From Serinicoccus sediminis (GTDB lineage: Bacteria > Actinomycetota > Actinomycetes > Actinomycetales > Dermatophilaceae): DNA of 64,000 bases. The stretch lies in contig NZ_SDVA01000002.1 in assembly GCF_004153545.1 (NCBI RefSeq), positions 1 through 64,000 on the forward strand, given 5' to 3'. Below, piece after piece: positions 9,109-56,821 of this stretch. Within the stretch, counting starts at the first letter, position 1. Each line of letters begins with the position of its first letter. Under the pieces are notes generated by a model, which made no database searches, was not told the origin of the DNA, and worked only from the letters and a program-made list of their open reading frames with translations. The position numbers and the translations under genes were made by a program.

Positions 9109-9175
9109 GCGGATCCTTCTCCTGCGGTGTGGGCGACGGGGCTGGTGGTACCGACCACCGGGGCCAGCATATACA

Positions 9176-9194
9176 TTAGGTTCGCCTTGCCTAA
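9176..9194. promoter_or_regulatory. Iron box (IdeR/DmdR-type operator)
   Basis: TTAGGTTCGCCTTGCCTAA matches the DtxR/IdeR consensus TTAGGTTAGCCTAACCTAA at 16 of 19 positions. It sits between the divergent siderophore reductase and siderophore-uptake genes, 17 bases before the lipoprotein start. An Fe2+-loaded repressor bound here would shut off both transcripts. Confidence 0.88.
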
Positions 9195-9211
9195 CTCGAC
9201 TAAGGAGATCC

Positions 9212-10276
9212 ATGCGTTCCTCTCGCGGCCGTGTCCTCGGCGCCGCCTCGGCGCTCACCCTCGCCCTGGCGCTGTCCGCCTGCGGTGACTCCAGCGGTTC
9301 GGACGACCCCGGCGACGGAGCGGGCGGTGAGACCTCCGGCAGCACCGGCGAGGCCTCCGACAGCGCCTTCCCGGTCACCGTCGAGCACGCCTTCGGCGAG
9401 ACCACCATCGAGGAGGAGCCCGAGCGGGTCGCCACCGTGGCCTGGGCCAACCACGAGGTGCCGCTCGCCCTCGGCGTGGTGCCGGTGGGCATGAGCGAGG
9501 CGACCTGGGGTGACGACGACGGCGACGGCGTGCTGCCGTGGGTCGAGGACGCGCTCGCCGAGATGGACGCCGAGACCCCGGTCCTCTTCGACGAGACGGA
9601 CGGCATCGACTTCGAGGCCGTGGCCGACACCCAGCCCGACGTCATCCTGGCCGCCTACTCCGGCCTGACCCAGGAGGAGTACGACACCCTCAGCCAGATC
9701 GCGCCGGTGGTGGCCTACCCGGAGCTCGCGTGGGGCACGACCTGGCAGCAGATGGTCGAGCTCAACAGCCAGGCGCTGGGCATGGCCGACGAGGGCGACG
9801 CGCTCGTCGAGGAGCTGGAGGGCTACGTCTCCGACACCGTGGCCGACTACCCGGAGCTGGAGGGCATGAGCGCGATGTTCAGCTCGCACAGCACCGACGA
9901 CCTGAGCCAGGTCGGCTTCTACACCACCCACGACCCGCGGGCGCTGTTCCTCGAGGAGCTCGGGATGACGACCCCCGAGCTGGTCGCCGAGCGCTCCGCC
10001 GAGAGCGAGACGTTCTACGAGACGGTCAGCGCGGAGAACGCCGACCTGTTCGGGGACGTCGACCTGCTGGTGACCTACGGGGACGACGCCCTGCTGGCCC
10101 AGCTGCAGGACGACGCCCTCGTGTCGGAGATCCCGGCCGTCGAGGACGGCGCCGTCGTCATGCTGGAGAACGACACCCCCCTCGCCGCCGCCGCGAACCC
10201 CTCGCCGCTCGCCCTCGAGTGGGGTCTGACCGACTTCCTCGACCTGGTCTCCGCCGCCGCAGAGAAGAGCCGGTGA
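9212..10276 (+). CDS. Iron-siderophore substrate-binding lipoprotein
   Basis: This 354-residue exported lipoprotein (signal peptide with lipobox LSAC near residues 21-24) delivers ferric siderophore to the FecCD permeases encoded downstream. Residues after the acidic linker fit the FepB/FhuD periplasmic-binding fold: PERVATVAWANHEVPLALGVVP, then DFEAVADTQPDVILAAYSGL. The ATG at 9212 follows AAGGAGATCC, a strong ribosome site. It is the first gene of a four-gene operon linked by GTGA overlaps and follows an iron box. Confidence 0.93.
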   Translation: MRSSRGRVLGAASALTLALALSACGDSSGSDDPGDGAGGETSGSTGEASDSAFPVTVEHAFGETTIEEEPERVATVAWANHEVPLALGVVPVGMSEATWGDDDGDGVLPWVEDALAEMDAETPVLFDETDGIDFEAVADTQPDVILAAYSGLTQEEYDTLSQIAPVVAYPELAWGTTWQQMVELNSQALGMADEGDALVEELEGYVSDTVADYPELEGMSAMFSSHSTDDLSQVGFYTTHDPRALFLEELGMTTPELVAERSAESETFYETVSAENADLFGDVDLLVTYGDDALLAQLQDDALVSEIPAVEDGAVVMLENDTPLAAAANPSPLALEWGLTDFLDLVSAAAEKSR

Positions 10277-11331
10277 CCGACACCCTCACCGCCGCCCCGC
10301 CGGACGCGCCTGCCCCCGCAGCGCGCCGGCGGGTCGGCACGCGCGCCTACCGCGTCACGACCCTGGTCGTGGCGCTCGGCGCGCTGCTGGTGGCCGGCAT
10401 CCTGTCGGTCACCTTCGGCGCCCGGGAGATCGCATATGCCGACCTCGTCGCCGCCCTCGGCGGCGCGCAGGACAACATCTCACAGGCGGCCGTCGCCCAG
10501 CGCATCCCGCGCACCGTCCTGGCCATGCTCGTCGGCGCCGCGCTCGGCCTGGCCGGCGCGGTCATGCAGGGCGTGACCCGCAACCCCCTCGCCGACCCGG
10601 GGATCCTCGGGGTGACCTCCGGCGCCTCCCTGGCGGTCGTCATCGGCATCGCCTTCTTCGGTCTCGGCACCGCCACCGGCTACGTCTGGGTGGCGATCGT
10701 GGGCGCCGCGCTCGCCGCGGCCGTCGTCTACGCCATCGGCTCGATGGGCCGCGGCGGTGCCACCCCGCTCAAGCTGGCGCTGGCCGGCGCGGCCCTGTCG
10801 GCCGCCTTCTCCTCGCTGGTCAGCGCGATCCTGCTGCCGCGCATCCAGGTGATGGACTCCTTCCGCTTCTGGCAGATCGGCGGGGTCGGCGGTGCGACCC
10901 CGGAGAAGATCCTCGTCGCCCTGCCCTTCCTCCTCGCCGGCACCCTCATGTCGTTCGCCGTGGCGCGCGGCCTCAACTCGCTGGCGCTGGGCGACGACCT
11001 GGCCGCCGGCCTGGGGGAGCGGGTGGCGCTGACCCGCGCGCTGGCCGCGGTCGGGGCGGTCACGCTCTGCGGCGCGGCCACCGCGGTGGCCGGACCCATC
11101 GGGTTCGTGGGGCTCGTCGTGCCGCACGCCTGCCGGCTCGTCGTCGGCACCGACCACCGGTGGCTGCTCCCGCTCTCGCTGCTGGTCGGCGCGGTCCTGC
11201 TGACGCTGGCCGACGTCGTCGGGCGCGTGGTGGCGCGGCCCGCGGAGGTCGACGTGGGCATCATCACCGCGCTCATCGGGGCGCCGGTCTTCATCGCCAT
11301 CGTGCGCCGCATGCGGGCGAGGGCGCTGTGA
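10273..11331 (+). CDS. Iron-siderophore ABC permease 1 (FecCD family)
   Basis: This 352-residue permease is one half of the heterodimeric membrane channel for ferric siderophore. It has about ten helices and the FecCD signatures RIPRTVLAMLVGAALGLAGA and QGVTRNPLADPGILGVTSGA, plus GPIGFVGLVVPH near the C terminus, where the ATPase docks. Its GTG start overlaps the preceding TGA (GTGA), so it is translationally coupled to the binding-protein gene; the longer in-phase frame upstream is a shadow. Confidence 0.94.
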   Translation: MTDTLTAAPPDAPAPAARRRVGTRAYRVTTLVVALGALLVAGILSVTFGAREIAYADLVAALGGAQDNISQAAVAQRIPRTVLAMLVGAALGLAGAVMQGVTRNPLADPGILGVTSGASLAVVIGIAFFGLGTATGYVWVAIVGAALAAAVVYAIGSMGRGGATPLKLALAGAALSAAFSSLVSAILLPRIQVMDSFRFWQIGGVGGATPEKILVALPFLLAGTLMSFAVARGLNSLALGDDLAAGLGERVALTRALAAVGAVTLCGAATAVAGPIGFVGLVVPHACRLVVGTDHRWLLPLSLLVGAVLLTLADVVGRVVARPAEVDVGIITALIGAPVFIAIVRRMRARAL

Positions 11332-12377
11332 GCACGGCATACACGACCCGTCCCGACCCCTCCCCGCTGCGCGCAGGCCGGCGGCGGCGCGCCGCGAGCC
11401 GCCGCCGCGCCGCCGGGCTCCTCGGCGTGCTGGTGCTCGTCCTCTTCGTCGTCAGCCTCATGGTCGGGCAGACGTTCTACGGACCCGGCGAGGTGTGGCG
11501 GGTCGTGCTCGGCCAGGACGTTCCCGGCGCGTCCTTCACCGTCGGCACCCTGCGGCTGCCGCGCGCCGTCCTCGGGCTCGTCGCCGGGGCCGCGCTGGGG
11601 ATGGCGGGCGTGACCTTCCAGACCATGCTGCGCAACCCGCTCGCCTCCCCCGACATCATCGGCATCAGCGCGGGCGCGAGCGCGGCGGCCGTCGTCGGCA
11701 TCGTCGTGCTGCGGGTGGACGAGGCGCTGGTGTCCGCGATGGCCATCGCGGCCGCCCTCGTGACGGCGCTGGTCATCTACCTGCTGGCCTACCGGGACGG
11801 GGTCCTCGGCACCCGGCTCATCCTCATCGGCATCGGCATCGCGGCGATGCTGGACTCGCTCGTCGCCTACGTCATCGTGCGCGCGGCCGCGTGGGACCTG
11901 CAGGTCGCGATGCGCTGGCTGACCGGCAGTCTCAACGGCGCCACCTGGGGCATCGTCCTGCCCCTCGTCGTGGCCGCGCTCGTGCTCATGCCGGCCCTGC
12001 TCTCCCAGTCCCGTCAGCTGGACCTGCTGCAGCACGGCGACGACACCGCCAGCGCCCTCGGGGTGCGCGTCGAGCGCACCCGGCTGACGGTCATCGTGGC
12101 GGCGGTCGCGCTCATCGCGTTCGCCACGGCGGCCGCCGGGCCCATCGCGTTCGTCGCCTTCCTCGCCGGGCCGATCGCCGCGCGTGTCGTGGGACCCGGC
12201 GGGTCGCTCATGGCCCCTGCCGCCCTCACCGGCGCGCTGCTCGTGCTCGCCGCCGACCTGGCGGGCCAGCACCTCTTCGGCACCCGCTACCCGGTCGGGG
12301 TCATCACCGGGGTGCTGGGTGCGCCCTACCTCGTCTACCTGCTCGTCCGCACCAACCGCGCCGGAGGCTCGCTGTGA
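11328..12377 (+). CDS. Iron-siderophore ABC permease 2 (FecCD family)
   Basis: The second, 349-residue membrane half of the siderophore importer. It shows LRLPRAVLGLVAGAALGMAG, FQTMLRNPLASPDIIGISAG and GPIAFVAFLAGPIA, the paralogous equivalents of those in permease 1. The N terminus is an arginine-rich cytoplasmic tail. The GTG at 11328 overlaps the stop of permease 1, and its own stop overlaps the start of the ATPase gene, so the four genes form one coupled operon. Confidence 0.94.
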   Translation: MSTAYTTRPDPSPLRAGRRRRAASRRRAAGLLGVLVLVLFVVSLMVGQTFYGPGEVWRVVLGQDVPGASFTVGTLRLPRAVLGLVAGAALGMAGVTFQTMLRNPLASPDIIGISAGASAAAVVGIVVLRVDEALVSAMAIAAALVTALVIYLLAYRDGVLGTRLILIGIGIAAMLDSLVAYVIVRAAAWDLQVAMRWLTGSLNGATWGIVLPLVVAALVLMPALLSQSRQLDLLQHGDDTASALGVRVERTRLTVIVAAVALIAFATAAAGPIAFVAFLAGPIAARVVGPGGSLMAPAALTGALLVLAADLAGQHLFGTRYPVGVITGVLGAPYLVYLLVRTNRAGGSL

Positions 12378-13192
12378 CCGACTCCCACACCCTCGTCGCC
12401 GAGCACGTCAGCCTTGGCTACGGCGACCGCACCGTCGTCGACGGCCTCGACCTCACCGTCCCCCCGGGCCGCATCACGACCATCGTCGGCGCCAACGCCT
12501 GCGGCAAGTCCACGTTGCTGCGCGCGCTGTCGAGGCTTCTCGCGCCGACCCAGGGCCACGTGCTGCTGGACGGCAAGGCCGTGCACACCCAGCCCACCAA
12601 GGCGGTGGCCCGCACCATGGGGCTGCTGCCCCAGAGCCCGATCGCGCCCGAGGGCATCGCGGTCGCCGACCTCGTGGCCCGCGGACGCAGCCCGCACCAG
12701 CGGATGCTGTCGCGGTGGGCGGTCGCCGACGAGCAGGCGGTCGAGGAGGCGCTCGAGCTCACCGGGACGACCGACCTGGTCGACCGGTCCGTGGACGAGC
12801 TGTCCGGGGGCCAGCGGCAGCGGGTCTGGATCGCCATGGCCCTGGCCCAGCAGACCGACATCCTGCTCCTCGACGAGCCGACGACCTTCCTCGACATCTG
12901 TCACCAGATCGAGGTGCTCGACCTGCTCACCGACCTCAACCGCACCCGCGGCACGACGATCGTCATGGTGCTGCACGACCTCAACCTCGCCGCGCGCTAC
13001 GCCGACCACCTCGTCGCGATGTGCGACGGCCGGCTGCTCGCGGGCGGGCCGCCCGAGGAGGTGCTCACGACCGAGACCGTCGAGCGGGTCTTCGGCATGC
13101 GCAGCCAGGTGGTGGCCGACCCCGTCTCCAGCAAGCCGATGGTCCTGCCCATCGGCCGCCACCACGCCGCCCAGCCCGTCGGGCACGCCTGA
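12374..13192 (+). CDS. Iron-siderophore ABC transporter ATPase (FepC type)
   Basis: This 272-residue ATPase energises siderophore import from the cytoplasmic side. Walker A is GANACGKST (residues about 41-49), the signature motif is LSGGQRQRVWIAMAL, Walker B is ILLLDEPTTFLD, and the switch histidine lies in VLHDLNLAARY, all typical of the FepC/FhuC branch. The GTG start overlaps the permease stop. An array of 22-bp repeats begins directly after its stop codon, so the end of the operon transcript runs into repetitive DNA. Confidence 0.95.
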   Translation: MTDSHTLVAEHVSLGYGDRTVVDGLDLTVPPGRITTIVGANACGKSTLLRALSRLLAPTQGHVLLDGKAVHTQPTKAVARTMGLLPQSPIAPEGIAVADLVARGRSPHQRMLSRWAVADEQAVEEALELTGTTDLVDRSVDELSGGQRQRVWIAMALAQQTDILLLDEPTTFLDICHQIEVLDLLTDLNRTRGTTIVMVLHDLNLAARYADHLVAMCDGRLLAGGPPEEVLTTETVERVFGMRSQVVADPVSSKPMVLPIGRHHAAQPVGHA

Positions 13193-45724: not shown

Positions 45725-45738
45725 GCCGGGACCGGCTC
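45723..45738. terminator. Hairpin at the SurA-like/SSS symporter gene ends
   Basis: GAGCCGG and CCGGCTC pair across GA, spanning the last base of the SurA-like stop and the start of the convergent SSS gene's stop. It is a plausible two-way terminator. Confidence 0.5.
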
Positions 45739-47248
45739 AGGCGGTGAGGTCCTCCGGGGTGTGCAGCCGCACGAGCGTGCGTGCCGCACCCCGGGGGATC
45801 CCCTGGGGGGTGGCCAGGGACACCCCCACCATGACCGCGCCGACCAGCGGCACGATCCAGGCCGCCGGCTGCGCCAGCAGCGCGGCGCTCCAGCCGCCCT
45901 GGTCGCCGGCCAGCACGGTCACCGCGACCGCGCCGATGGCCAGCACCGCCCCGGTGAGCAGCCCGGCGGTGGCGCCCTGCACCGACAGCCGCGGCCACCA
46001 CACCCCGAGCGCCAGCAGCGGGAAGAACGTCGAGGCCGCGATGACGAAGGCCAGGGTGACGAAGGCCGCCAGCGGCACCTCGGGGAAGATCCCGACGCCG
46101 GCGAAGGGCACGAGCACCGCCACCACGGCGGCGATGCGGAAGCCGGCCACCTCGGAGGAGTCGCCGGGCACCGCCCGGGCGAGCAGCGGCCGGACGACGT
46201 CCTGGTTGAGCACCCCGGTCACCGCGAGCGCGAGCCCGGAGGAGGTCGAGAGGAACGCCGCGAAGGCCCCGCCGGCGAGCGCCGCGAGCAGCACCTCCCC
46301 GCCGAGGCCGGGCAGCACCTCCGCGGGCAGCCGCAGGACGACCGTGTCCGGCCGCACCCCGGGCTCCAGGGTGGGCAGGTAGGCGCGGCCGAGCACGGCA
46401 TACACCACCGTGACGACGTAGAAGAGGCCGAGGAGCACGAGCACCCGCACGGTCGTCGCCCGCGCCCCGGTGCCGTCCGGGTTGGTGTAGTAGCGGACCA
46501 CGACGTGCGGCAGCCCCATCGTCCCCAGGGCCAGCGCGAGCACGAGCGACAGGGTGCGGTAGAGCCCGTGACCGTCGCTCTGCGGGCCGCTGCCCGGCAG
46601 CACCCACGACTCGGCGACCTGGAGCCCCGGTCCCTGCGTGCCCCACCACACGGCCAGCAGCACGCCGGCCGGGACGGCCAGGGCGGACAGCTTGATCCAG
46701 TACTGGACCGCCTGCACGAGGGTGATCGAGCGCATCCCCCCGGCCGCCACGGAGAGCACGACCACCCCGACCACGAGCACCGGCCCGAGCCACAGCGGCG
46801 CACCCGACACCAGCCGGAGGGTGAAGCCGGCGCCCTGCAGCTGCGGCAGCAGGTAGAGCCAGCCGATGAAGACGACGAGCACCGAGCACAGGTGCCGGAC
46901 CGAGCGGGACTCCAGGCGCGCCTCGGCGAAGTCGGGCAGCGTGTAGGCGCCGGAGCGGCGCAGCGGGGCGGCGACGAGCACCAGCAGGACGAGGTAGCCG
47001 ACGGTGTAGCCGACCGGGTACCACAGCGCGTCCACGCCCTGGTCGTAGATGAGCCCGGCGACGCCGAGGAAGCTGGCGGCCGAGAGGTACTCCCCGCCGA
47101 TGGCCGCGGCGTTGCGCTGCGGGGTCACGGCGCGCCCCGCGACGTAGAAGTCGCTGGTCCGGCGGGAGAGGCGCAGCACGAACACGCTGAGGGCGACGGT
47201 GACGAGGCAGACGAGGAGTACCGCTGCGCCGGCCAGGCTCGGGGCCAC
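45737..47248 (-). CDS. Sodium:solute symporter (ActP/SSS family)
   Basis: This 503-residue membrane symporter has the LeuT-fold SSS signature: DFYVAGRAVTPQRNAAAIGGEYLSAASFLG in helices 1-2, GGMRSITLVQAVQYW, and ALAGGAFAAFLSTSSGLALAVTG. It probably imports a small carboxylate such as acetate or pyruvate with Na+; the sequence does not fix the substrate. A companion 128-residue DUF485-like membrane protein is encoded just upstream with TGA overlap, typical of ActP-type gene pairs. GTG at 47248 is used; TTG at 47254 is an alternative. Confidence 0.9.
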   Translation of the reverse strand: MAPSLAGAAVLLVCLVTVALSVFVLRLSRRTSDFYVAGRAVTPQRNAAAIGGEYLSAASFLGVAGLIYDQGVDALWYPVGYTVGYLVLLVLVAAPLRRSGAYTLPDFAEARLESRSVRHLCSVLVVFIGWLYLLPQLQGAGFTLRLVSGAPLWLGPVLVVGVVVLSVAAGGMRSITLVQAVQYWIKLSALAVPAGVLLAVWWGTQGPGLQVAESWVLPGSGPQSDGHGLYRTLSLVLALALGTMGLPHVVVRYYTNPDGTGARATTVRVLVLLGLFYVVTVVYAVLGRAYLPTLEPGVRPDTVVLRLPAEVLPGLGGEVLLAALAGGAFAAFLSTSSGLALAVTGVLNQDVVRPLLARAVPGDSSEVAGFRIAAVVAVLVPFAGVGIFPEVPLAAFVTLAFVIAASTFFPLLALGVWWPRLSVQGATAGLLTGAVLAIGAVAVTVLAGDQGGWSAALLAQPAAWIVPLVGAVMVGVSLATPQGIPRGAARTLVRLHTPEDLTA

Positions 47249-47250
47249 CC

Positions 47251-47637
47251 TCAACGCTCCCGGGCGACCGCGGTGAGCCGCTGCTCGATCCGGGTCGCGG
47301 CCCGCGTGTACCAGGCCGCGACCCCGACGAGCGCGGGGTAGACGAGCACGGCGAGCACGGGCCACACGACCGGCACCCCGGCGACCTGGACGGACCGGGC
47401 GGCGGGGAGCACGGCATACAGGACGGGTATGCCGCCCAGCACCACCGCGAGCCCGGCCAGGACCGCGAGCGCGAGCCGCAGCTGCGCGCGCAGCAGGCCG
47501 TGCAGGTAGAGCTCGCCGGCGCCGGTCTGCTCGACCAGCGCGGCCGCCATGGGGCGGCGGCGCGCGGTCGCGGCCTCGCGACGGGCCGAGGTCACCCGCA
47601 CCCGCGCCTCGTACCGCGCGGGCGCCTCCTCGCTCAC
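47251..47637 (-). CDS. DUF485-like partner protein of the symporter
   Basis: This 128-residue membrane protein has two hydrophobic helices (ALAVLAGLAVVLGGIPVLYAVL and VVWPVLAVLVYPALVGVAAWY) and a basic N-terminal region. It precedes an SSS symporter, as the yjcH-type DUF485 protein precedes actP. Sequence match to DUF485 is only loose, so I rely on context and topology. It overlaps the LytTR gene end by four bases, so four genes form one operon. Confidence 0.72.
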   Translation of the reverse strand: MSEEAPARYEARVRVTSARREAATARRRPMAAALVEQTGAGELYLHGLLRAQLRLALAVLAGLAVVLGGIPVLYAVLPAARSVQVAGVPVVWPVLAVLVYPALVGVAAWYTRAATRIEQRLTAVARER

Positions 47638-48401
47638 GCGCCCTCACCGAGGACGCGCTCGCGCACCGTCCGTGCGTGGCGGCGGGCCACCGGGAGCTCG
47701 GGCCCGTCCGGCAGCAGCCGCAGGCTGAGCCGACCCTGTGCCTGGCGCACCTGGCCGACGTGGGCGAGGTTGACCAGCGTGGACCGGTGGATCCGGACGA
47801 AGCCGGCGGCGGCCCACCGCTCCTCCAGCGTGGTGAGCGGCAGCCGCAGCAGGTGCGACGCCGACCCGGTGAAGAGGCGCACGTAGTCGCCCTGCGCCTG
47901 GACGTAGCGCACCGAGGAGCGCTGCACGAAGCGGGTGACGCCGCCGAGCTCGACGGCGATCCGCTCCTCGGGCGGCTCCGGCGCCGGTCCGTGGCCGGGG
48001 CGGGCGGCCTCCGGGGGGTCGACGACGGTCGGGCCGCGGCGCGCCAGCGCGGCGACGACCCGGTCGACCGCCTGGGCGAGCCGGGCCGGCGGCACCGGCT
48101 TCATGACGTAGTCGACGGCCTGCACCGCGAACGCGTCCACCGCGTGCTCCTCGTGCGCGGTGACGAAGACGACCAGCGGCGGCGTGGCGAAGCGGTTGAC
48201 CACCCGGGCGAGCTCCATGCCGTCCAGGCCCGGCATCGAGATGTCGGAGAAGACCACGTCGACGTCGCCGTCCTCCAGCGCCCGCAGCGCGTCGGTGCCC
48301 GAGCCGACCGGGTGCACGCTGCCCAGCCGGCCGTCCTGCTCCAGCAGGTAGGTCAGCTCGGACAGGGCCGGCGGTTCGTCGTCGACGACGAGGGCACGCA
48401 T
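47634..48401 (-). CDS. LytTR-type response regulator
   Basis: This 255-residue regulator has a receiver domain (phosphoacceptor aspartate in VVFSDISMPGLDGME; lysine in MKPVPPARL) and a C-terminal LytTR DNA-binding domain (VRYVQAQGDYVRLFTG, FVRIHRSTLVNLAHV). It is paired with the histidine kinase encoded 21 bases upstream, and it precedes the symporter genes in the operon. It probably activates them in response to external substrate, as in YpdAB/BtsSR pyruvate sensing, by analogy only. Confidence 0.92.
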   Translation of the reverse strand: MRALVVDDEPPALSELTYLLEQDGRLGSVHPVGSGTDALRALEDGDVDVVFSDISMPGLDGMELARVVNRFATPPLVVFVTAHEEHAVDAFAVQAVDYVMKPVPPARLAQAVDRVVAALARRGPTVVDPPEAARPGHGPAPEPPEERIAVELGGVTRFVQRSSVRYVQAQGDYVRLFTGSASHLLRLPLTTLEERWAAAGFVRIHRSTLVNLAHVGQVRQAQGRLSLRLLPDGPELPVARRHARTVRERVLGEGA

Positions 48402-48422
48402 GGGGTCATGGTAGGGCCGGGT

Positions 48423-49640
48423 TCAGCGGTCCGGGTGGACGCCGGGGGCGTACTTCGGCACCCGGAAGGTCACCTTGGTGCCCAGGCCGGGCGCGGTCTC
48501 GACGACCAGGCCGTGCTCGTCGCCGTAGACCTGCCGGAGCCGGGCGTCGACGTTGCCCAGGCCCATGCTGTGCCCGTCGTGCGCGGCGGCCTCCCCGCTG
48601 CGGTCGCCGTCGAGGGCGCGTCGGACCAGCTCGGGGTCGGAGCCGACGCCGTCGTCCTCGATGGCGATCTCGGCCAGGTCGCCCAGGTCGGTGCCGGTGA
48701 TGGTGACCGTGCCGACCCCCTCCTTGCCGGCGAGCCCGTGCCGCACGGCGTTCTCCACGAGCGGCTGCACCGAGAGGTAGGGCACCGCCACCGGCAGCAC
48801 CTCGGGGGCGATGAGCAGGTTGACCCGCAGCCGCTCGCCGAAGCGCGCCTGCTCGAGCACGAGATAGCGCTCGATGTTGCGCAGCTCGTCGGCGAGGGTG
48901 GTGTAGGCGCCGCCGCGGCGCAGGGCATACCGGGTGAAGTCGGCGAACTCCAGCAGCAGCTCACGGGCCCGGTCGGGGTCGGTGCGGACGAACGAGGCGA
49001 TGGCGCCGAGGGAGTTGTAGATGAAGTGGGGGCTGATCTGCGCGCGCAGGCTGCGCAGCTCGGCCTCCATGGCGCGGGTCCGCTCCCGGTCCAGCTCGCC
49101 CAGCTCCAGCTGGCCGCTCACCCACGTCGCGACCTGCTCGGTCGCCCGGGCGAGACCGGCCGACGGACGCGGGGAGTATGCCGCGAGCGCGCCGATGACC
49201 CGGTCGTCAACCACGAGCGGGGCGACCACGCCGGCGCGCACCGGGCACTCGGGCACCTCGCAGGGCAGGTCGGCCCGGGTGAGGACGACGACGTCGCCCC
49301 CGCGCAGCACCCGGTGCGCGTGGTCGGCCGCCTGCTCGCGGTGGTGGTCGCCCAGCCCGCTCCAGGCCAGCGTCTGCTGGCTGTCGCAGATGGCCAGGGC
49401 GGTCCCGCCCAGCATCATCCGCAGGTGCCGGGCGGCCGGCTCGGCGTGCTCCGGGGTCAGCCCGGCCCGCAGGTTGCGGCCCGCCTGCGCACCCGAGCGC
49501 AGCGTCTCGTAGGTGATCCGGTCGGTCTCGGAGAGGAAGCCCCGGGCGGCCCGCCGCCGTCGCCACCAGGCCAGCAGCCAGACCAGCAGGCACGCCCCCA
49601 GGACCAGCAGCGCGGTCGGCAGGTGGAGGTCTCCGGGCAT
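48423..49640 (-). CDS. LytS-type sensor histidine kinase
   Basis: This 405-residue kinase has one N-terminal membrane helix (ALLVLGACLLVWLLAWW), a GAF-like cytoplasmic sensor region (about 60-170), then the LytS-type phosphoacceptor QISPHFIYNSLGAIASF and an ATPase domain with PLVENAVRHG and GLGNVDARL. Unlike classical LytS it lacks the 5TM sensor domain. It is the first gene of a four-gene operon that leads to the symporter. The signal is unknown. Confidence 0.9.
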   Translation of the reverse strand: MPGDLHLPTALLVLGACLLVWLLAWWRRRRAARGFLSETDRITYETLRSGAQAGRNLRAGLTPEHAEPAARHLRMMLGGTALAICDSQQTLAWSGLGDHHREQAADHAHRVLRGGDVVVLTRADLPCEVPECPVRAGVVAPLVVDDRVIGALAAYSPRPSAGLARATEQVATWVSGQLELGELDRERTRAMEAELRSLRAQISPHFIYNSLGAIASFVRTDPDRARELLLEFADFTRYALRRGGAYTTLADELRNIERYLVLEQARFGERLRVNLLIAPEVLPVAVPYLSVQPLVENAVRHGLAGKEGVGTVTITGTDLGDLAEIAIEDDGVGSDPELVRRALDGDRSGEAAAHDGHSMGLGNVDARLRQVYGDEHGLVVETAPGLGTKVTFRVPKYAPGVHPDR

Positions 49641-49692: not shown

Positions 49693-50748
49693 TCAGCCGG
49701 GGAAGACCCGGACCGGGCCGACCACCCACAGGCCGACGGTGTCGCCGACCGCGGGGGCCTCCGGCCCGACCACCCGGGCCCGCAGCCCCTTGAGCGGGGT
49801 GCCGCTCACCAGCTCGAGGTCGGCGACCGAGTCGTGGCCGAAGTAGGTCACCCGGGACACCCGGGCGTCGACCGAGCCCTCCCCCGGTGCGACGAGCCGC
49901 AGCTGCTCGGGCCGCAGGATCGCGACGACCGCGCCCCGGGTGACGAAGCCGGCCGCCTCCAGGTTGCCGAGGGCGCACCGGAACTGGTTGTGGCTGGCCA
50001 GCCCGTGGATGGGGATGGCCTCGCCCATGAAGGACGCGATGTGCGCGTCGACCGGCTCGCCGTAGATGGTCCGCGGCGGCGCGATCTGGCCGAACGCGCC
50101 CTGCCGGAGCACGGCGATCTCGTCGGCGAAGGACATCGCCTCCCCCTGGTCGTGGGTCACGAGCAGGGTGGTCGCCCCCGAGGCCTGCAACGCCCGCGCC
50201 GTCGCCTCGCGGGTCGCCGTCCGCAGCGCGGTGTCGAGGGAGGAGAAGGGCTCGTCGAGCAGGACCAGGTCGGGCCGGGGGGCGAGCGCCCGCGCCAGGG
50301 CGACGCGCTGCTGCTGCCCCCCGGAGAGCTGGTCGGGGCGCCGCTCGGCCACGTCGGCGGGCAGCTCGACGAGGTCGAGCAGCTCGAGCACGCGGTCCCG
50401 GTGCGCCCGGCCGCGCCGCGCGATGCCCGTGCGCGGCAGCCCGAAGGCGATGTTGCCGGCGACCGACAGGTGCGGGAAGAGGCCGCCGTCCTGCCGGACG
50501 TAGCCGACGCCGCGGCGCTCCGGCGCGACCCACGCGTCGTCGCCGGCGACCGTCCGGCCCCCGACCTGGACCTGCCCCGCGTCCGGTCGCAGGAAGCCGG
50601 AGATGACCTTGAGCAGGGTGGTCTTGCCGGAGCCGGAGTCGCCGAGCACCGCGGTGGTGCCGCCGGAGGGCACGGCCAGGTCGACGCCGTGGAGGATCTC
50701 CACGTCGCCGTAGCCGGCGCGCACGCCGGACAGCCGCACCTCGCTCAT
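49693..50748 (-). CDS. Ferric-iron ABC transporter ATPase (FbpC type)
   Basis: This 351-residue ATPase has Walker A GDSGSGKTT, signature LSGGQQQRVALARAL and Walker B LVLLDEPFSSLD, then a C-terminal TOBE-like domain (from about 270) as in FbpC. It is the last gene of the adenylation-fusion/iron-importer operon. Neighbours with a binding protein and a two-module permease make it an Fe3+ importer of the Fbp/Sfu type. It starts 17 bases after the permease stop. Confidence 0.9.
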   Translation of the reverse strand: MSEVRLSGVRAGYGDVEILHGVDLAVPSGGTTAVLGDSGSGKTTLLKVISGFLRPDAGQVQVGGRTVAGDDAWVAPERRGVGYVRQDGGLFPHLSVAGNIAFGLPRTGIARRGRAHRDRVLELLDLVELPADVAERRPDQLSGGQQQRVALARALAPRPDLVLLDEPFSSLDTALRTATREATARALQASGATTLLVTHDQGEAMSFADEIAVLRQGAFGQIAPPRTIYGEPVDAHIASFMGEAIPIHGLASHNQFRCALGNLEAAGFVTRGAVVAILRPEQLRLVAPGEGSVDARVSRVTYFGHDSVADLELVSGTPLKGLRARVVGPEAPAVGDTVGLWVVGPVRVFPG

Positions 50749-50764
50749 CGGCCCGCGTGCTCCC

Positions 50765-52405
50765 TCAGCTCGTGATCTGGCGCCGCAGCAGGACCGTCAG
50801 CGGGACCGACAGGGCGATCATCATGGCGGCGAAGGGCGCTGCGGCAGCGTAGTCCAGCTCCGCGGTGGCGCTCCAGAAGGCCAGCGCCAGCGTCTCCACC
50901 CCGGTGGGCGCGAGCAGCAGGGTCGCGGTGAGCTCGGTGCTGATGGCCAGCGCCACGAGCACGAAACCGGCGAGCACCGAGGGCGCGGCGAGGGGCAGGA
51001 CCACCCGGCCGAGCACGCCGGCGCCGTTCTGCCCGAGCGAGCGGGCGGCCTCGGCCAGCTCCGGCGGCGCGGCGGCCAGCCCGGAGCGCAGCGCCACCAT
51101 GGCGCGGGGCAGGAAGAGGATGGCGTAGGCCAGGAGCAGCAGCAGCGCGGTCTGGTAGATCCCGGGGACCAGCGAGATCGACAGCGTGATGAGGGCCAGG
51201 GCGACGACCACGCCGGGCAGCGAGCTGGCCAGGAAGGTGAGCCGCTCGACGAGCACCGCGAACGGGCCGGGGTGCCGGTCCAGCAGCACCGCCCCCGGCA
51301 GCCCGAGCGCGACCGCCAGCAGACCGCCGAGCACGGCGAGCCCCACGGTGGATCCGGTGACGAGGAGCAGGTCACCCAGCCCGGCACCCTCGACCCGGAT
51401 GCGGGTGCCGACGAGCAGCCAGCGCGCGACCACCGCGACCGGGACGACGACGGCCAGCGCGACCACCGCGCCCAGGGCCGCGACCGCAGGCACCGTCCAC
51501 CGCCCCAGGGGCAGCGGCAGCGGTCGACGCCCGGCGCCGGCGCCGAGCCGGGCCACCCGGGCCCGGCCCCGGGCCGCGACCTCGACGGTGAGCACCAGCA
51601 GGCACAGCACGAGCAGGACCGTCGCCAGCAGCGAGCCGCGCACGTCGCTGAACCCCACGGCGTACTGCTGCAGGATGGCGGTGGTGAAGGTCTGGTAGCG
51701 CATCATCTCCAGCACCCCGAACTCGGCGAGCAGGTGCAGCGCGACGAGCAGCGCCCCACCGCTGACCGCCGGGCGCAGCCGGGGCAGGACGGTGCGGAAG
51801 AACGCGCCGACCGGCCCGACGCCCAGGGAGCGGGCGATCTCCTCCTCGCCGGCGTCGAGGGTCCGCAGCAGCGCGGCGACCGGCAGGAAGACGAAGGGGA
51901 AGTAGGCGAGGGTGGTCACCAGCACCGCTCCCCCGAGGCCCACCAGTCCCGGGCGCACCGAGATCCAGGCGTAGGCGCTGACGAACGCCGGCACCGCCAG
52001 CGGCGCCAGCATGAGGGTGCGCCACAGCCCCGGCACCGGCAGGTCGGTGCGCTCGACCAGCCAGGCCGCCCCGACGCCGAGGACGACGGTCGCCGGCACG
52101 GTCAGCACCATGAGCCAGCCGGTGTGCGCGAGCAGCTCGCCGATCCGGGGCCGCACCAGGTAGTCGAGCGCTTCCCCCGGCGGTCCCGAGCCGGCGCGGA
52201 CGAGGATGACCGCCACCGGCAGCACGGTGAGCGCCGCGACCAGGGTCGCGAGGGTGGCCAGCACCGGGCTGGCCGGGCGGCGCGGGCGCCGGCGGGTCGG
52301 CGCCCGCTGTCCCGGCGCCCGCTGCCGGTCGGGCTCCGGACCCGGGCCGCCGGCGGCTCCGGCCGCCGCGGCGGCGCGCAGCGTGCCGCTAGAGGAGACC
52401 GACAT
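50765..52405 (-). CDS. Ferric-iron ABC transporter permease (FbpB type)
   Basis: This 546-residue permease is a fusion of two halves, each with about six helices and an EAA-type loop (AFVSAYAWISVRPGLVG in the first half; LAEAARSLGQNGAGVLGRVVLP in the second), as in FbpB/SfuB. Basic residues (RRRPRRP) precede the first helix. Its ATG at 52405 overlaps the end of the binding-protein gene by 17 bases. The pair is clearly one transcript. Confidence 0.9.
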   Translation of the reverse strand: MSVSSSGTLRAAAAAGAAGGPGPEPDRQRAPGQRAPTRRRPRRPASPVLATLATLVAALTVLPVAVILVRAGSGPPGEALDYLVRPRIGELLAHTGWLMVLTVPATVVLGVGAAWLVERTDLPVPGLWRTLMLAPLAVPAFVSAYAWISVRPGLVGLGGAVLVTTLAYFPFVFLPVAALLRTLDAGEEEIARSLGVGPVGAFFRTVLPRLRPAVSGGALLVALHLLAEFGVLEMMRYQTFTTAILQQYAVGFSDVRGSLLATVLLVLCLLVLTVEVAARGRARVARLGAGAGRRPLPLPLGRWTVPAVAALGAVVALAVVVPVAVVARWLLVGTRIRVEGAGLGDLLLVTGSTVGLAVLGGLLAVALGLPGAVLLDRHPGPFAVLVERLTFLASSLPGVVVALALITLSISLVPGIYQTALLLLLAYAILFLPRAMVALRSGLAAAPPELAEAARSLGQNGAGVLGRVVLPLAAPSVLAGFVLVALAISTELTATLLLAPTGVETLALAFWSATAELDYAAAAPFAAMMIALSVPLTVLLRRQITS

Positions 52406-53414
52406 CGGTCATGAGGTCGGTGACCTCGTCGCTGTCGAGGGTGAACGGGTCGACCGGCGGCGCGTCGAGGTCGGCGAGCGGCGGCAGCGCCGGGTCGGAG
52501 TCGACGCCCTCGGCGACCGCATACTCCATCGACCCGGAGTCGACGAGCACCTGCTGCCCCTCCGGCGAGGTGATCCAGGCGAGGAACTGCTGCGCGGCGT
52601 CCGGCTTGGCGGCGTTGGCCAGGACCCCTCCGGCCGAGAGCGACACGAAGGCGCCCGGGTCCTGGTTGCCGAAGTAGTGCAGCCGGGTGCTGCCGGACTG
52701 CTCCTGCGTGCCGGCCTGGTCGCGGTACCAGTAGTAGTGGTACATCACCCCGACCGGCACCTCGCCGGCGTTGACCGCCTGCATGGTGGCGATGTTGTTC
52801 TGGTAGATCTCCGCCCCGGACTCCAGCGCCTCCAACCAGGCACGGGTCTCCTCCTCGCCCCGGTCGGCCAGCATCCCGGCGACGATGGCCTGGAAGTCGG
52901 CGCCCCCCGGGGCGCAGCCCCAGCGTCCCGCCCAGGCGGGGTCGGCCAGGTCCATCATCGAGGCCGGCAGCTCCTCCTCGGAGATCTGCTCGGGGTTCCA
53001 ACACAGGACGGTCGAGCGGGCGGCGATCGCGGTCCAGTCGCCGCTGGAGGGCGCGCGGTCCTCCGGCACCTGGGCGAGGGTCTCGTCGGCCACCGGGGCG
53101 AGCAGCCCGGCGCGCTCCACGACGGTCATCGCCGGCGAGTTCTCGGTGAGGAAGACGTCGGCCGGGCTGGCCTCCCCCTCGGCGACGATCTGGTGCCCCA
53201 TCGAGGAGTCGGTGCCGCGCCGGATCTGCGTCGGGATGCCGGTGGCCTCGGTGAAGGCGTCGGCCCACGCCTGGGTGACCCCCTCGTGCTGGGAGGAGTA
53301 GATCTGGAGCGCCTCGGGGTCCGGGACGTACTCCTCCTCCCGGCTGCAGGCGCTCACCACCAGCGGGGAGGCGGCGAGGGCGGCCAGCAGGGCGCGGCGG
53401 GACAGGGTGCTCAC
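52389..53414 (-). CDS. Ferric-iron substrate-binding lipoprotein (FbpA-like)
   Basis: This 341-residue lipoprotein (STLSRRALLAALAASPLVVS, lipobox VSAC) has the FbpA/FutA fold: PDPEALQIYSSQHEGVTQAW at the N terminus and adjacent tyrosines in MYHYYWYRDQ, which in this family coordinate ferric iron. It is probably tethered to the outer face of the membrane. GTG at 53414 overlaps the stop of the adenylation-fusion gene (GTGA), so the importer is translated directly after it, which ties this unusual synthetase to Fe3+ uptake. Confidence 0.92.
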   Translation of the reverse strand: MSTLSRRALLAALAASPLVVSACSREEEYVPDPEALQIYSSQHEGVTQAWADAFTEATGIPTQIRRGTDSSMGHQIVAEGEASPADVFLTENSPAMTVVERAGLLAPVADETLAQVPEDRAPSSGDWTAIAARSTVLCWNPEQISEEELPASMMDLADPAWAGRWGCAPGGADFQAIVAGMLADRGEEETRAWLEALESGAEIYQNNIATMQAVNAGEVPVGVMYHYYWYRDQAGTQEQSGSTRLHYFGNQDPGAFVSLSAGGVLANAAKPDAAQQFLAWITSPEGQQVLVDSGSMEYAVAEGVDSDPALPPLADLDAPPVDPFTLDSDEVTDLMTDVGLL

Positions 53415-56170
53415 GGACGGGTCCTCTCGGGGGACGGGGCGCTGGGGACGGGGGTGGCCGGTTCGGCCCGCGTCGCGGACGGGGTGTGCCGGGGGTCGAG
53501 CAGCCGTTGCAGCCGCCGGACGGGGGCGTCGGAGAGGCGCCACAGCAGCACGCCCGCGGCGAGCGCCGCGACGGTGGCGAGCAGCGGGGTGGGCACCCAG
53601 CCGAGGATCTGGAACTGGATGAGGTAGATGTGCAGGCTCGCGGCCGCGAGGACGGTGAGGACCGGCACCAGGCGGGCAGGCACCCGCAGGGTCGGCACCA
53701 GGGCGAGCAGCAGGACGCCGGCGAGGATGGTGGCGTTGCGGACCGGGTCGTCGGGGAAGAACCACGCGACCCCGAGGGTCATCGCGCCCAGGGTCCACCA
53801 CCGGCGGGCGGGGGTGTCGGCGTGGGCGAGCGCGAGACCGACGGCGAAGAGCCAGAAGACGGTCGGCATCATGCCGCGCAGCACGCCGTCGGCGAGGCTG
53901 AGCACGAGGAAGCGCGGGACGAGCGCGACGAGGAGCAGCCCGAAGGCCACCCGCCAGGGGTCGGTGCGCCAGGCGCGGGCCACCGGTGGCAGCGAGAGCA
54001 CCGCCGTGGTCAGCAGCAGGCAGGCGACGAGGGCGTCGACGAACCACAGCTCGTTGTGCTTGCCGTAGGCGATGTCACCGACGAGCCAGTTGGCCAGGAC
54101 CACGTTGTCCCAGCCGTAGCGACCGTAGGACAGCCCCAGCAGCGCCACCGCCATCGTGGGGACGGCGATGCCGACCAGCAGCCGGGCGGTCCCGCGCCAG
54201 CGCGCGGCGACGCCCGGCGCGGACAGCCCGAAGGTGGCGGCGCTGAGGCCGGCCACGACGAGCAGGGTGTGGGCGCCGCCGAGGACGCGGAACAGGTCGG
54301 CGTGCGAGCCGCAGATGATGACGACCGCGACCGCCCGCAGCACGACCGAGGTCTCCAGCGGGACACGGGCACCGTGTCCCCCTCGCGTCCGGCCCTCCCC
54401 GGCCGGGCGGGGGGTCCGCAGGCGGCGGAACCGGCGCCTGCCGCCGGGCTGGCCCCCGCCGTCGTCCCCGCCGTCGGTGGGCCCTCTCTCCGGCTCGACC
54501 AGCTGTGCGGCGGCGACCAGCTCGGTGAGCGGCCGGTGCTGCCAGCCACGGGGCAGCTCGCCCAGCAGCGCGGTCAGCCGGGTGGAGGCCAGGACGTGCG
54601 ACAGGGAGTCGCCACCGAGCTGCACGAAGGACTGCTGCAGGTCCACCTCGTCGCGCCCGAGGACGCCGCCGAGCACCTCGGCGACCCGCACGGGCAGGCT
54701 CGGCGCGTCGACCCGCTGCCGGGTGTCGGCGCACTCGTCCGGGTCGCCCCCGCGCACCAGGACGTCGCAGCCGGGGCGGTCGACCTTGCCGTTGGCCAGG
54801 CGCGGCAGCGGCAGCACGGCGACCCGGACGTGGCCCACACCGACCCCGCTCGCGTCCGCCGCGACCCGGCGGGCCCGGGCGGCCAGCTGCTCGGCCGGGA
54901 CGCCTCCGGCCGGCTCGACCGCCACCCGGAGGCTCTCGTCGTCGCCGGTGACGCAGGCGTCCAGCCCCTCCGCCTCGAGGGCCTGCTCGACCCGGGCGAG
55001 GTCGATGCGCAGCCCGAGGATCTTGACGAACCCGGAGCGCCGCCCCACGATCCGCAGCAGTCCCGACGCGTCGACCCGCCCGAGGTCACCGGTGCGCAGC
55101 TCCTCGACCATCCGGCCGAGCGCCAGGTCCTCCGGGGACTCGGCATACCCGAGCATCACGCCCGGCCCGCGGACGACCACCTCGCCCACCCCGTCGCCGG
55201 ACGCCTCCGGCACGGTGCGGTCCAGCACGACGGTGGTGCCGGGCACGGGGCGCCCCACCGCGTCCGGCGCCCCGGCCACCTCGCGCGGGTCGTGGACGCA
55301 GATGCGCGCGGTGGCCTCGGTCTGCCCGTACATCACCGCGAGCCCGAAGCCGTGATCCCTGCCGAGTCCCGCCAGGCGGGTGACCTGGTCCGGCGACAGG
55401 CGGCCCCCTGCCTGGGTCAGCAGCCGCAGGGACGGATGACGGCGCCGCAGCCTTCCCGACCGCTCGAGGAGGTCGACCTGGTGCGGCACCAGGGCCAGCG
55501 TGCTCACCCCTGCGTCGACGCAGGACCAGAACTCGTCGTCGAGCACGGACGCCCCGGTGAGCGCGACGGCCGCGCCGGCGAGCAGGTGGCTGTGCAGGAC
55601 CGAGAGGCCGAAGCAGTAGTGCAGCGGGAGGCTGGTCACGCCGCGGTCGGCGGCGGTGAGCCCGAGCGCCTGGCCGATCGCCCGGGCGTTGGCCAGCAGG
55701 CCGTCGCCGGAGAGCCGGACGAGCTTGGGCGACCCGGTCGAGCCGGAGGTGCTCAGCAGCAGGGCCAGCTCCGGGTGCAGCAGGTGCCGCGGGGCGGGCG
55801 CGAGGTCGGTGCGCGGAGGCTCCTCGACCTGCCCCCCGGCACCGAGCACGAGGTCCGGCTCCCAGGTCGCGCCGAGCCCGCGGTCCCCCTCGGGCACCAG
55901 CAGCACCACGTGACCGGCCTCGAGCACGGCGAGGTAGGCCACCACGTCGTCGGGCCGGGGTCGCACCGACACCTGCACGAGCAGCCGCCCCCCGGACACC
56001 GGCGGCAGCGCGTCCGCGCGCTCCTCCACCCGCCGCCGCAGCTCGCCGTGGGTCAGCACCCCGTCCGCGGAGACCAGCGCCGGTGCCGCGGGGTCCACGG
56101 AGCCGGCCGGCGGCAGCGGCGCTCGGCCGGGGCGCGTCGACGCGGGGGCGACGGCGGGATGGACGGACAC
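53411..56170 (-). CDS. Adenylation domain-carrier protein-membrane acyltransferase fusion
   Basis: This 919-residue protein is the most unusual gene here. Residues 1-465: adenylate-forming domain (LLLSTSGSTGSPK 138-149, YGQTEAT 281-287, RTGDLGR 359-365, GRRSGFVKILG, NGKVDR with K462). Helix A4 reads LPLHYCFGLSVLHSHLLAG, lacking the aspartate that binds amino groups in peptide synthetases, so a carboxylic acid substrate is likely. Residues 490-555: carrier domain, phosphopantetheine serine S522 in QLGGDSLS. Residues 605-900: about ten helices like acyltransferase family 3 (RAVAVVIICGSHADLF, ELWFVDALVA). No condensation domain. GTG at 56170 follows an iron box; longer starts would run through it. 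Confidence 0.85.
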   Translation of the reverse strand: MSVHPAVAPASTRPGRAPLPPAGSVDPAAPALVSADGVLTHGELRRRVEERADALPPVSGGRLLVQVSVRPRPDDVVAYLAVLEAGHVVLLVPEGDRGLGATWEPDLVLGAGGQVEEPPRTDLAPAPRHLLHPELALLLSTSGSTGSPKLVRLSGDGLLANARAIGQALGLTAADRGVTSLPLHYCFGLSVLHSHLLAGAAVALTGASVLDDEFWSCVDAGVSTLALVPHQVDLLERSGRLRRRHPSLRLLTQAGGRLSPDQVTRLAGLGRDHGFGLAVMYGQTEATARICVHDPREVAGAPDAVGRPVPGTTVVLDRTVPEASGDGVGEVVVRGPGVMLGYAESPEDLALGRMVEELRTGDLGRVDASGLLRIVGRRSGFVKILGLRIDLARVEQALEAEGLDACVTGDDESLRVAVEPAGGVPAEQLAARARRVAADASGVGVGHVRVAVLPLPRLANGKVDRPGCDVLVRGGDPDECADTRQRVDAPSLPVRVAEVLGGVLGRDEVDLQQSFVQLGGDSLSHVLASTRLTALLGELPRGWQHRPLTELVAAAQLVEPERGPTDGGDDGGGQPGGRRRFRRLRTPRPAGEGRTRGGHGARVPLETSVVLRAVAVVIICGSHADLFRVLGGAHTLLVVAGLSAATFGLSAPGVAARWRGTARLLVGIAVPTMAVALLGLSYGRYGWDNVVLANWLVGDIAYGKHNELWFVDALVACLLLTTAVLSLPPVARAWRTDPWRVAFGLLLVALVPRFLVLSLADGVLRGMMPTVFWLFAVGLALAHADTPARRWWTLGAMTLGVAWFFPDDPVRNATILAGVLLLALVPTLRVPARLVPVLTVLAAASLHIYLIQFQILGWVPTPLLATVAALAAGVLLWRLSDAPVRRLQRLLDPRHTPSATRAEPATPVPSAPSPERTRP

Positions 56171-56175
56171 GCGAC

Positions 56176-56194
56176 TTAGGCTAGCCTCAGCGAA
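56176..56194. promoter_or_regulatory. Iron box in the fusion/PPTase divergent promoter
   Basis: TTAGGCTAGCCTCAGCGAA matches the DtxR/IdeR consensus TTAGGTTAGCCTAACCTAA at 15 of 19 positions and contains the perfect palindrome AGGCTAGCCT. It lies six bases from the fusion start and 28 from the phosphopantetheinyl-transferase start. An iron repressor here would control both genes. The downstream start codon must come after it, so the fusion mRNA is probably leaderless. Confidence 0.75.
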
Positions 56195-56221
56195 AAAGGT
56201 GACCAAATCCATGGGTATTTC

Positions 56222-56821
56222 ATGACCGACCCTCTCGTCGTCGACGTCTGGTGGGCCGACCTCACGGCCGCCGACCTCCGTCTGCTCACGCTGCTGCCGG
56301 AGCCCGAGCGGCTCCGGGTGCTCGCCGTGCCGCGGGACGCCGACCGTGGTCGCTCGCTGGTGGCGGCGGCGCTGCTGCAGCACGCGGTCGCCCGTCACCG
56401 GCGTCGGGCGGCCGGGTCCGCCGGTGCCGCGCCGGCGGACCTCACGCCGGTCCAGGTCGACCGCACCTGCGCCGGGTGCGGCGAGCAGCACGGCCGCCCG
56501 GTCGTCGACGGCGGGCCGCACGTGTCGGTCGCCCACGCGCACCTGCTCGTGGCCGTCGCGACCTGCGCCGGCGCGTCCCTCGGCGTCGACGTCGAGCGGC
56601 TCGACCGCGACCTGCCCGACGGGTCGGACCCGCTGGGCTGGACGCTGCGGGAGGCCCGGGTCAAGGCGGGCGTCGAGGTGGGAGCGGCTGCGTGCGAGAC
56701 CCCGCTCACCCCACCGCTGCCCGGGTATGCCGCGGCTCTGGTCCTCGCCCCCGTCGCCGCCGGGTCGGCCGCCGACGACGTCGACCTCGAGGTGCGCGAG
56801 CACCGGTGGCACCCGGGCTGA
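56222..56821 (+). CDS. 4'-phosphopantetheinyl transferase (Sfp type)
   Basis: This 199-residue enzyme installs the phosphopantetheine arm on a carrier protein, presumably S522 of the divergent fusion. Motifs: GPHVSVAHAHLLVAVAT, Mg2+ residues D123 and E125 in GVDVERL, and WTLREARVKAG (E144, K148), where the usual lysine before E is arginine. It is slightly short for Sfp (about 220 residues). It shares an iron-controlled promoter with the fusion, a strong hint of an iron-regulated carrier pathway. ATG at 56222. Confidence 0.88.
   Translation: MTDPLVVDVWWADLTAADLRLLTLLPEPERLRVLAVPRDADRGRSLVAAALLQHAVARHRRRAAGSAGAAPADLTPVQVDRTCAGCGEQHGRPVVDGGPHVSVAHAHLLVAVATCAGASLGVDVERLDRDLPDGSDPLGWTLREARVKAGVEVGAAACETPLTPPLPGYAAALVLAPVAAGSAADDVDLEVREHRWHPG

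Follow-up and report, generated by a model that had tools for sequence, protein, structure and literature searches.

An adenylation-carrier-acyltransferase-like fusion linked to a probable ferric-ion importer in Serinicoccus sediminis and related actinobacteria

Gene organization of the locus

The DNA analyzed here, referred to as the window, is a 64-kb stretch of the Serinicoccus sediminis genome (GCF_004153545.1, contig NZ_SDVA01000002.1, positions 1 to 64,000). The subject of this study is a gene in it encoding a fusion of an adenylation domain, a carrier domain and a membrane domain resembling the acyltransferase-3 (AT3) family, together with a divergent phosphopantetheinyl transferase (PPTase) gene and the three genes of an FbpABC-type importer. 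The features of the locus are as follows.

56222..56821, plus strand: Sfp-type PPTase, divergent from the fusion, assigned from family residues
56176-56194: DtxR/IdeR-type iron box TTAGGCTAGCCTCAGCGAA, in the 51-bp gap (56171-56221) between the divergent starts, with 4 mismatches to the 19-bp consensus
53411..56170, minus strand: fusion protein, adenylation-carrier-AT3, 919 aa, GTG start
54761..56083, minus strand: adenylation domain, residues ~30-470 (C186, F187, S190, T252, A254, M280, A288, R289, K462)
54491..54703, minus strand: carrier domain, residues ~490-560, phosphopantetheine serine S522 at 54605-54607
53486..54373, minus strand: ten-helix AT3-like acyltransferase domain, residues ~600-895, with R612-x10-H623
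52389..53414, minus strand: FbpA-type Fe3+-binding lipoprotein, matching YfuA/SfuA and overlapping the fusion stop by 4 bp
50765..52405, minus strand: FbpB-type permease, start at 52405 or lower
49693..50748, minus strand: FbpC-type ATPase, from domain scans

Domain structure and distribution of the fusion

The initial annotation had described a 919-residue protein with the order adenylation, carrier (S522) and AT3-like domain of about ten helices, lacking condensation and thioesterase domains, and this is borne out by Pfam searches of the relatives and by AlphaFold. The adenylation domain matches PF00501 (E 2.9e-37). The carrier domain, with the motif GGDS522, scores 18.5 bits against Pfam PP-binding, narrowly under the cut-off of 20.8; PP-binding was matched in 22 of 29 fusion relatives, and S522 is invariant in all 77 aligned family sequences. 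Acyl_transf_3 (PF01757) is matched only weakly in the window fusion (E 0.046, 13.2 bits vs a cut-off of 31), and in 17/29 relatives at E<=0.001 (best 1.6e-10). AMP-binding, PP-binding and Acyl_transf_3 were the only Pfam families among the 29 fusion members, with no MBOAT-type DltB, and Pfam found neither a condensation nor a thioesterase domain in the fusion protein. Modeled alone with AlphaFold, the membrane domain consists of ten helices, with a predicted local distance difference test score (pLDDT) of 94.5 and a predicted TM-score (pTM) of 0.92; the model of the whole fusion, built with 77 sequences, reached a pLDDT of 87.1 and a pTM of 0.60. A PDB profile search with the AT3 alignment gave no match up to E 1, and a BFVD search with the membrane domain returned one viral protein at 2.3e-4.

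Among 149 genomes of the family to which the window belongs, 65 match the fusion at 1e-20, adenylation-only matches included, and 52 at 1e-80 or better. These 52, some with the fusion split over contigs, are the fusion-plus genomes referred to below (E<=1e-80). In a sample of the phylum, 19/396 genomes match at 1e-60, 15 of them with matches extending into the membrane domain and four over the adenylation domain only. Scanning species genomes for two motif patterns gave at least 586 stretches that encode a relative (tblastn E 1e-3), and the 80 loci discussed throughout are the best 80 of these. All 80 relatives, whose start codons were picked by a simple rule, are full-length (808-935 residues) and actinobacterial, and include members of Streptomyces, Arthrobacter, Microbacterium, Rhodococcus, Kribbella, Micromonospora, Nocardioides, Cellulomonas and Parafrankia, among others. 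The three-domain layout, for which a profile scan had been suggested, thus recurs in an actinobacterial family of full-length relatives that is probably present in many more genomes than the ~80 studied here. No phage relatives were found at 1e-25. The annotator knew of no described system of this layout, and full-text searches of the open-licence literature listed no description of one either. Genes in the neighborhoods were called with a codon-usage caller trained on eight genes of the window; it missed the fusion in 2/40 fetched family loci and in 12 of the 80 loci, and tblastn was therefore used to count Fbp genes.

The membrane domain compared with ordinary AT3 enzymes

In the published description (PMC9833829), AT3 enzymes take acyl groups from acyl-coenzyme A (acyl-CoA) in the cytosol and hand them to acceptors on the outer face of the membrane. 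Their R-X10-H is absolutely conserved, and a highly conserved RXXR lies at the cytosolic end of helix 3, its Arg74 touching the 3'-phosphate of CoA in simulation. The R-x10-H is present in 77/77 sequences of the fusion family and in all 13 plasmid relatives, and the RXXR ahead of the proline in transmembrane helix 3 (TM3) in 0/77. When the same pattern was applied to 28 ordinary AT3 proteins from four genomes, RXXR was found in 28/28 and R-x10-H in 27/28. Since the RXXR is missing from the family, the domain is here called AT3-like rather than a plain member of AT3. An RXXR does occur in one plasmid relative (L203), four residues further from the conserved proline. The carrier motif of the plasmid relatives is GGDS in 12/13 and GGNS in L200, the serine being kept. 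On the simplest reading of these sequences, the phosphopantetheine arm of the fused carrier would replace CoA, and we infer a putative transmembrane acyltransferase that is fed by a carrier rather than by CoA. Such an enzyme would, to our knowledge, be the first AT3 enzyme fed by a carrier.

The adenylation pocket and the putative acid

Pocket positions were counted over the alignment of the 77 family sequences. The catalytic lysine K462 is present in 77/77, as are S190, Q253, A254, M280, A288, R289 and a Tyr or Phe at position 187, while C186 is found in 74/77 and the more variable positions T252 and A226 in 57/77 and 61/77, respectively. With the PheA numbering that we take to apply, C186 occupies the position of the amino-group aspartate in the window fusion, and Cys stands there in 74/77, in agreement with the original observation that helix A4 lacks this aspartate. 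A similar signature is readable in 8/8 proteobacterial relatives, seven of which have Ser where the window fusion has C186. From the near-fixed pocket, a single acid is likely for the whole family. It is probably a common metabolite, as no gene for making an acid was seen repeatedly next to the fusion, and our guess is that the pocket arginine would suit a second carboxylate.

Attempts to name the acid were unsuccessful. The closest solved structures of the adenylation part in Foldseek (MenE, CahJ, PltF, oxalyl-CoA synthetase, MatB and DltA) are too varied to point to one substrate. When neighboring genes were clustered over the 80 loci and 39 loci from the window's family, no cluster beyond Fbp and PPTase occurred in more than 6/80 loci, and the neighbors could not be used to name the acid either. 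A selection of the local neighbors was scanned with Pfam, the functions of most others not being looked up, and those scanned are varied and seemingly unrelated; a prolyl-oligopeptidase-like gene recurs in 4/80 loci. In one genome (L036, 11766-13801), kynureninase and tryptophan 2,3-dioxygenase genes lie directly upstream of the fusion on the same strand, but anthranilate was set aside as the acid because this is a single case.

The divergent PPTase

The gene opposite the fusion had been annotated as an Sfp-type PPTase, and the families and conserved residues of its homologs agree. The window protein alone has no Pfam match. Of 22 homologs, however, 14 match AASDHPPT_N and one matches ACPS, and G121, D123, W140, E144, A145 and K148 are invariant in all 22, giving the motifs G-x-D and W-x3-E-A-x2-K, which we take to be those of Sfp-type enzymes. 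A PPTase gene lies within four genes of the fusion in 12/39 family loci and in the flanks of 26/80 named loci. The S. sediminis genome contains neither a condensation domain (PF00668) nor IucA/IucC (PF04183), the two markers to which the search for siderophore routes was confined; three chorismate-binding genes are present. Two carrier domains were detected in the genome, that of the fusion and one on a short frame, which looks like a fatty-acid acyl carrier protein (ACP). With no condensation domain, no IucA/IucC and one other carrier, the divergent PPTase is likely a dedicated partner of the fusion.

The iron box

The annotated single divergent promoter region of 51 bp does carry a predicted iron box (56176-56194), scored against what we take to be the 19-bp DtxR/IdeR consensus. 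Boxes with <=6 mismatches were searched in the 300 bp ahead of the start and the first 60 bp after it. They were found at the fusion start in 76/80 distant loci vs 4/1389 null windows placed at random in the same loci, and in 39/39 family loci scanned. At the box-less starts of L110 and L142 the fusion is the last gene of an fbpABC operon and the box precedes fbpA instead, and in L133 a box downstream of the fusion precedes fbpA. In 16 genomes with FbpA away from the fusion, a box with <=6 mismatches precedes fbpA in each, and in the five actinobacterial plasmid loci it precedes the fusion, except in L200, where it precedes the fbpA of the operon. Control of the fusion by a DtxR/IdeR-family regulator under iron scarcity may be inferred from this conservation.

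Should translation indeed begin at the GTG at 56170, only 5 nt would lie between it and the box, which implies a leaderless message or one with a lower start. A scan of the 51-bp gap for a consensus promoter gave nothing. The only other comparable iron box in the 64 kb (9176-9194) lies in a region (8278-13192) where a gene for a siderophore-interacting protein (minus strand) faces an importer of Peripla_BP_2, FecCD and ABC ATPase genes (plus strand); one gene of this importer region (11427-12377) was left out of the domain scan.

Linkage to the FbpABC importer

The stop codon of the fusion and the start of FbpA share the 4-bp overlap GTGA (53411-53414), confirming that the fusion gene overlaps the first of the three importer genes. 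FbpA is closest to Yersinia YfuA (E 3.4e-108) and Serratia SfuA (5.5e-103), and the paired tyrosines (HYY) are present in 55/56 neighbors called substrate-binding protein (SBP), the exception (L101) being cut by a contig end. By NCBIfam, FbpB and FbpC rank near 2-aminoethylphosphonate/phosphonate and polyamine models, FbpC also near ferric ones, all below the curated cut-offs, and their ferric label thus rests on the adjoining SBP. The likeness of FbpA to YfuA/SfuA makes a ferric-ion importer most likely. An SBP of this Fe3+-binding type argues against uptake of an entire modified lipid or surface molecule, which had been suggested.

The suggested check of whether the fusion keeps company with fbpABC showed all three Fbp genes in the fetched flanks of 58/80 named loci (tblastn on all 80), in several arrangements. 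In the 39 family loci, all three lie within four genes of the fusion in 24, with FbpA alone in two more. Under a stricter bit-score rule for FbpA and FbpB, the Fbp genes lie downstream in line in 30 of the 80 loci and upstream in line in 2, are divergent in 21 and convergent in 4, and 23 loci have none. Mapped on a 77-row tree as five labels, 'none' included and 24 family rows labeled by hand (two of them, L042 and L051, with FbpA only), the arrangements require at least 16 changes against a mean of 38.8 for shuffled labels, which indicates that the same partners were repeatedly rearranged yet kept together, and sometimes separated. Of 17 genomes with FbpA missing or not close to the fusion (a count excluding G068 and G098, where FbpA is close, as well as G000 and G145), 16 have an FbpA relative elsewhere, and the single miss is a 75% complete genome. 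FbpA relatives were present in 20/21 fusion-plus vs 14/31 fusion-minus family genomes (Fisher p 2e-4), both sets being selected by us and the 31 drawn from the 97 other genomes of the family.

In Streptomyces and Micromonospora loci such as L097, L102 and L120 the SBP has NHYY rather than YHYYWYRD and scores much lower against the Fbp queries, so the fusion there seems to have an SBP of another Fe3+-binding subfamily as partner. Downstream of fbpC on the same strand of the window (45737-49640), genes named by eye encode a LytS-like histidine kinase, a LytTR-type regulator, a small membrane protein and a solute symporter-like protein, and relatives of the first three also adjoin the system in L026.

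Plasmid and proteobacterial relatives

Plasmid records matching the fusion number 76 at 1e-40 and 96 at 1e-25, with Rhizobium, Leisingera, Shinella and Roseateles among them. The 13 plasmid loci examined comprise five actinobacterial and eight proteobacterial ones (one cut by the record end), and in their records the gene is annotated as 'AMP-binding protein' or 'AMP-dependent synthetase'. fbpABC adjoins the fusion in 5/13, namely 4/5 actinobacterial and 1/8 proteobacterial loci (Pararhizobium A13).

On three actinobacterial plasmids, L197 (5034-8611), L200 (1617-5081) and L201 (5629-7606), the neighborhood of the fusion includes cation-efflux genes accompanied by a signal peptidase II (LspA) of their own and by regulators of ArsR or winged-helix type; two of the three also have a cadmium resistance transporter. 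A 33% identical relative on a plasmid of Rhizobium sp. Kim5 (L196, 9019-16654) is in line with genes for an AAA ATPase, YcaO and a TfuA-like protein, a context that looks unrelated. On the proteobacterial plasmids L202, L203 and L204, a MerR-family regulator and a glutaredoxin or MauE/DoxX protein are encoded near the fusion relative.

Proposed function

We propose, with a probability of roughly one in two, that the fusion is a self-loading transmembrane acyltransferase, an iron-starvation partner of FbpABC that makes an acylated envelope component or a small released molecule. As iron falls, a DtxR/IdeR-family repressor would leave the conserved box, and the PPTase, in a genome whose other detected carrier looks like a fatty-acid ACP, would convert the carrier to its holo form at S522. 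The adenylation domain, with intact motifs, a near-invariant pocket and no recurring acid-making gene seen nearby, would then activate a single small acid that every cell has at hand and load it onto the carrier. The phosphopantetheine arm, in the place of CoA, would bring its acyl load close to H623 in the membrane pore, and transfer to an acceptor on the outer side would follow, by analogy with the AT3 mechanism. The acylated envelope component or small released molecule may help to hold or free Fe3+ near FbpA, and FbpABC would then import the ion; that the product binds iron is suggested by the company the gene keeps. More tentatively, and with a chance that we put clearly below even, the system may represent a widespread and undescribed iron-acquisition strategy in which a carrier-fed AT3 enzyme makes a ligand, on the surface or released, that holds iron and supplies FbpABC, in hosts perhaps without a classical siderophore.

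Several observations weigh against this proposal. A review names acyl-CoA rather than ACP as the AT3 donor (PMC9558356), and TM3 retains arginines 657, 659 and 663 and with them part of its basic patch. The pTM of 0.60 means that domain placement in the whole-fusion model is loose and that docking of the carrier is not reliably modeled. None of the PDB fold matches of the AT3 part reaches E 0.001. Human HGSNAT, of the TmAT superfamily that includes the AT3 enzymes (PMC12423673), is by far the match of highest probability (prob 0.87, TM 0.44, E 0.31) and ranks by E-value behind four unrelated proteins. As for the link to iron, locus L095 has no iron box, no DtxR-type box with <=6 mismatches was found in the eight proteobacterial plasmid loci, and 22/80 loci are without the three Fbp genes in their flanks. 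Seven of the eight proteobacterial relatives have no Fbp neighbor despite a near-identical pocket, and the chemistry may thus be broader than iron; we argue for a general chemistry that appears to be joined to iron handling mainly in actinobacteria.

The same seven relatives, and the three of five actinobacterial plasmid copies lying among metal-efflux genes, would fit a Dlt-like remodeling of the envelope under iron starvation without any chelating product. A wall polymer, glycan or lipid would be acylated, as known AT3 proteins do with surface glycans (PMC9558356), charge or permeability would change, and fbpABC would simply belong to the same regulon. We regard this as unlikely, although it is the alternative that survives best: co-regulation leaves unexplained why the same importer, and not other iron-box genes, is joined to the fusion in four arrangements and many families.

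Less probable still is a one-enzyme synthetase of a siderophore or weak chelator, which would attach the acyl group to a small acceptor and set the product free outside the cell, with FbpA then stripping the resulting Fe3+ complex or binding it. An Fe3+-type SBP does adjoin the fusion, PF04183 and PF00668 were both sought in vain in the S. sediminis genome, and CahJ (salicylate) and EntE-EntB are among the Foldseek neighbors of the adenylation part. A synthetase of this kind is harder to reconcile with the neighborhoods, where beyond Fbp and PPTase no cluster exceeds 6/80 loci (most functions not looked up). In addition, IucA/IucC co-occurs with the fusion at chance level (8/52 fusion-plus vs 15/97 other genomes), so there is no visible replacement of that route, and a role of the fusion as substitute for the siderophores made independently of nonribosomal peptide synthetases (NRPS) was rejected on this ground. 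A membrane domain acting as a flippase or docking part, with the thioester used by another protein, would suit a domain that is under the Pfam cut-off in the window member and lacks RXXR, but is very improbable given that the R-x10-H, absolutely conserved in AT3 enzymes (PMC9833829), is kept in 77/77 and that no partner enzyme but the PPTase was seen recurring beside the fusion.

If the proposed self-loading acyltransferase is real, it would be an AT3 enzyme fed by a carrier protein, contrary to the view of acyl-CoA as the donor taken in the review (PMC9558356), and loss of RXXR would be a sequence signature of carrier feeding. It would also give a likely reason why many actinobacteria keep an iron-controlled Fbp-type ferric-ion importer. 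The whole would be a one-gene system, full-length in the ~80 species genomes studied, which the 13 plasmid records annotate simply as an AMP-binding protein or AMP-dependent synthetase.

Comparison with known systems

The fusion shares with the AT3/TmAT enzymes (OafB, OatA, ExoH, HGSNAT) the ten helices, the R-x10-H on helix 1 and the expected transfer of an acyl group from the cytosol to the outside. It differs in having its own adenylation and carrier domains and no helix-3 RXXR, and in a donor that would be an acyl-carrier rather than acyl-CoA. In the AT3 literature consulted, the fusions named are with SGNH, NRF and the VanT racemase, none of them with adenylation-carrier domains. The importer resembles FbpABC, SfuABC and YfuABC, the neighboring SBP matching YfuA and SfuA, but is here joined by an acyltransferase fusion with which it shares the iron box. 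With the NRPS siderophore synthetases (EntE-EntB, CahJ, MxcG, DhbF), the system has in common an adenylation-carrier didomain, a PPTase and iron control; in the fusion, however, Pfam detects no condensation or thioesterase domain, and a membrane AT3 domain is found instead.

In the Dlt system (DltA-DltC-DltB-DltD), adenylation, carrier and membrane acyltransferase activities act in series, and the initial annotation had seen the same logic here. The fusion differs in being one polypeptide, in an acyltransferase of AT3 type and not MBOAT, in the lack of the amino-group aspartate and in its iron box. As a series of activities, Dlt is a fair analogy.

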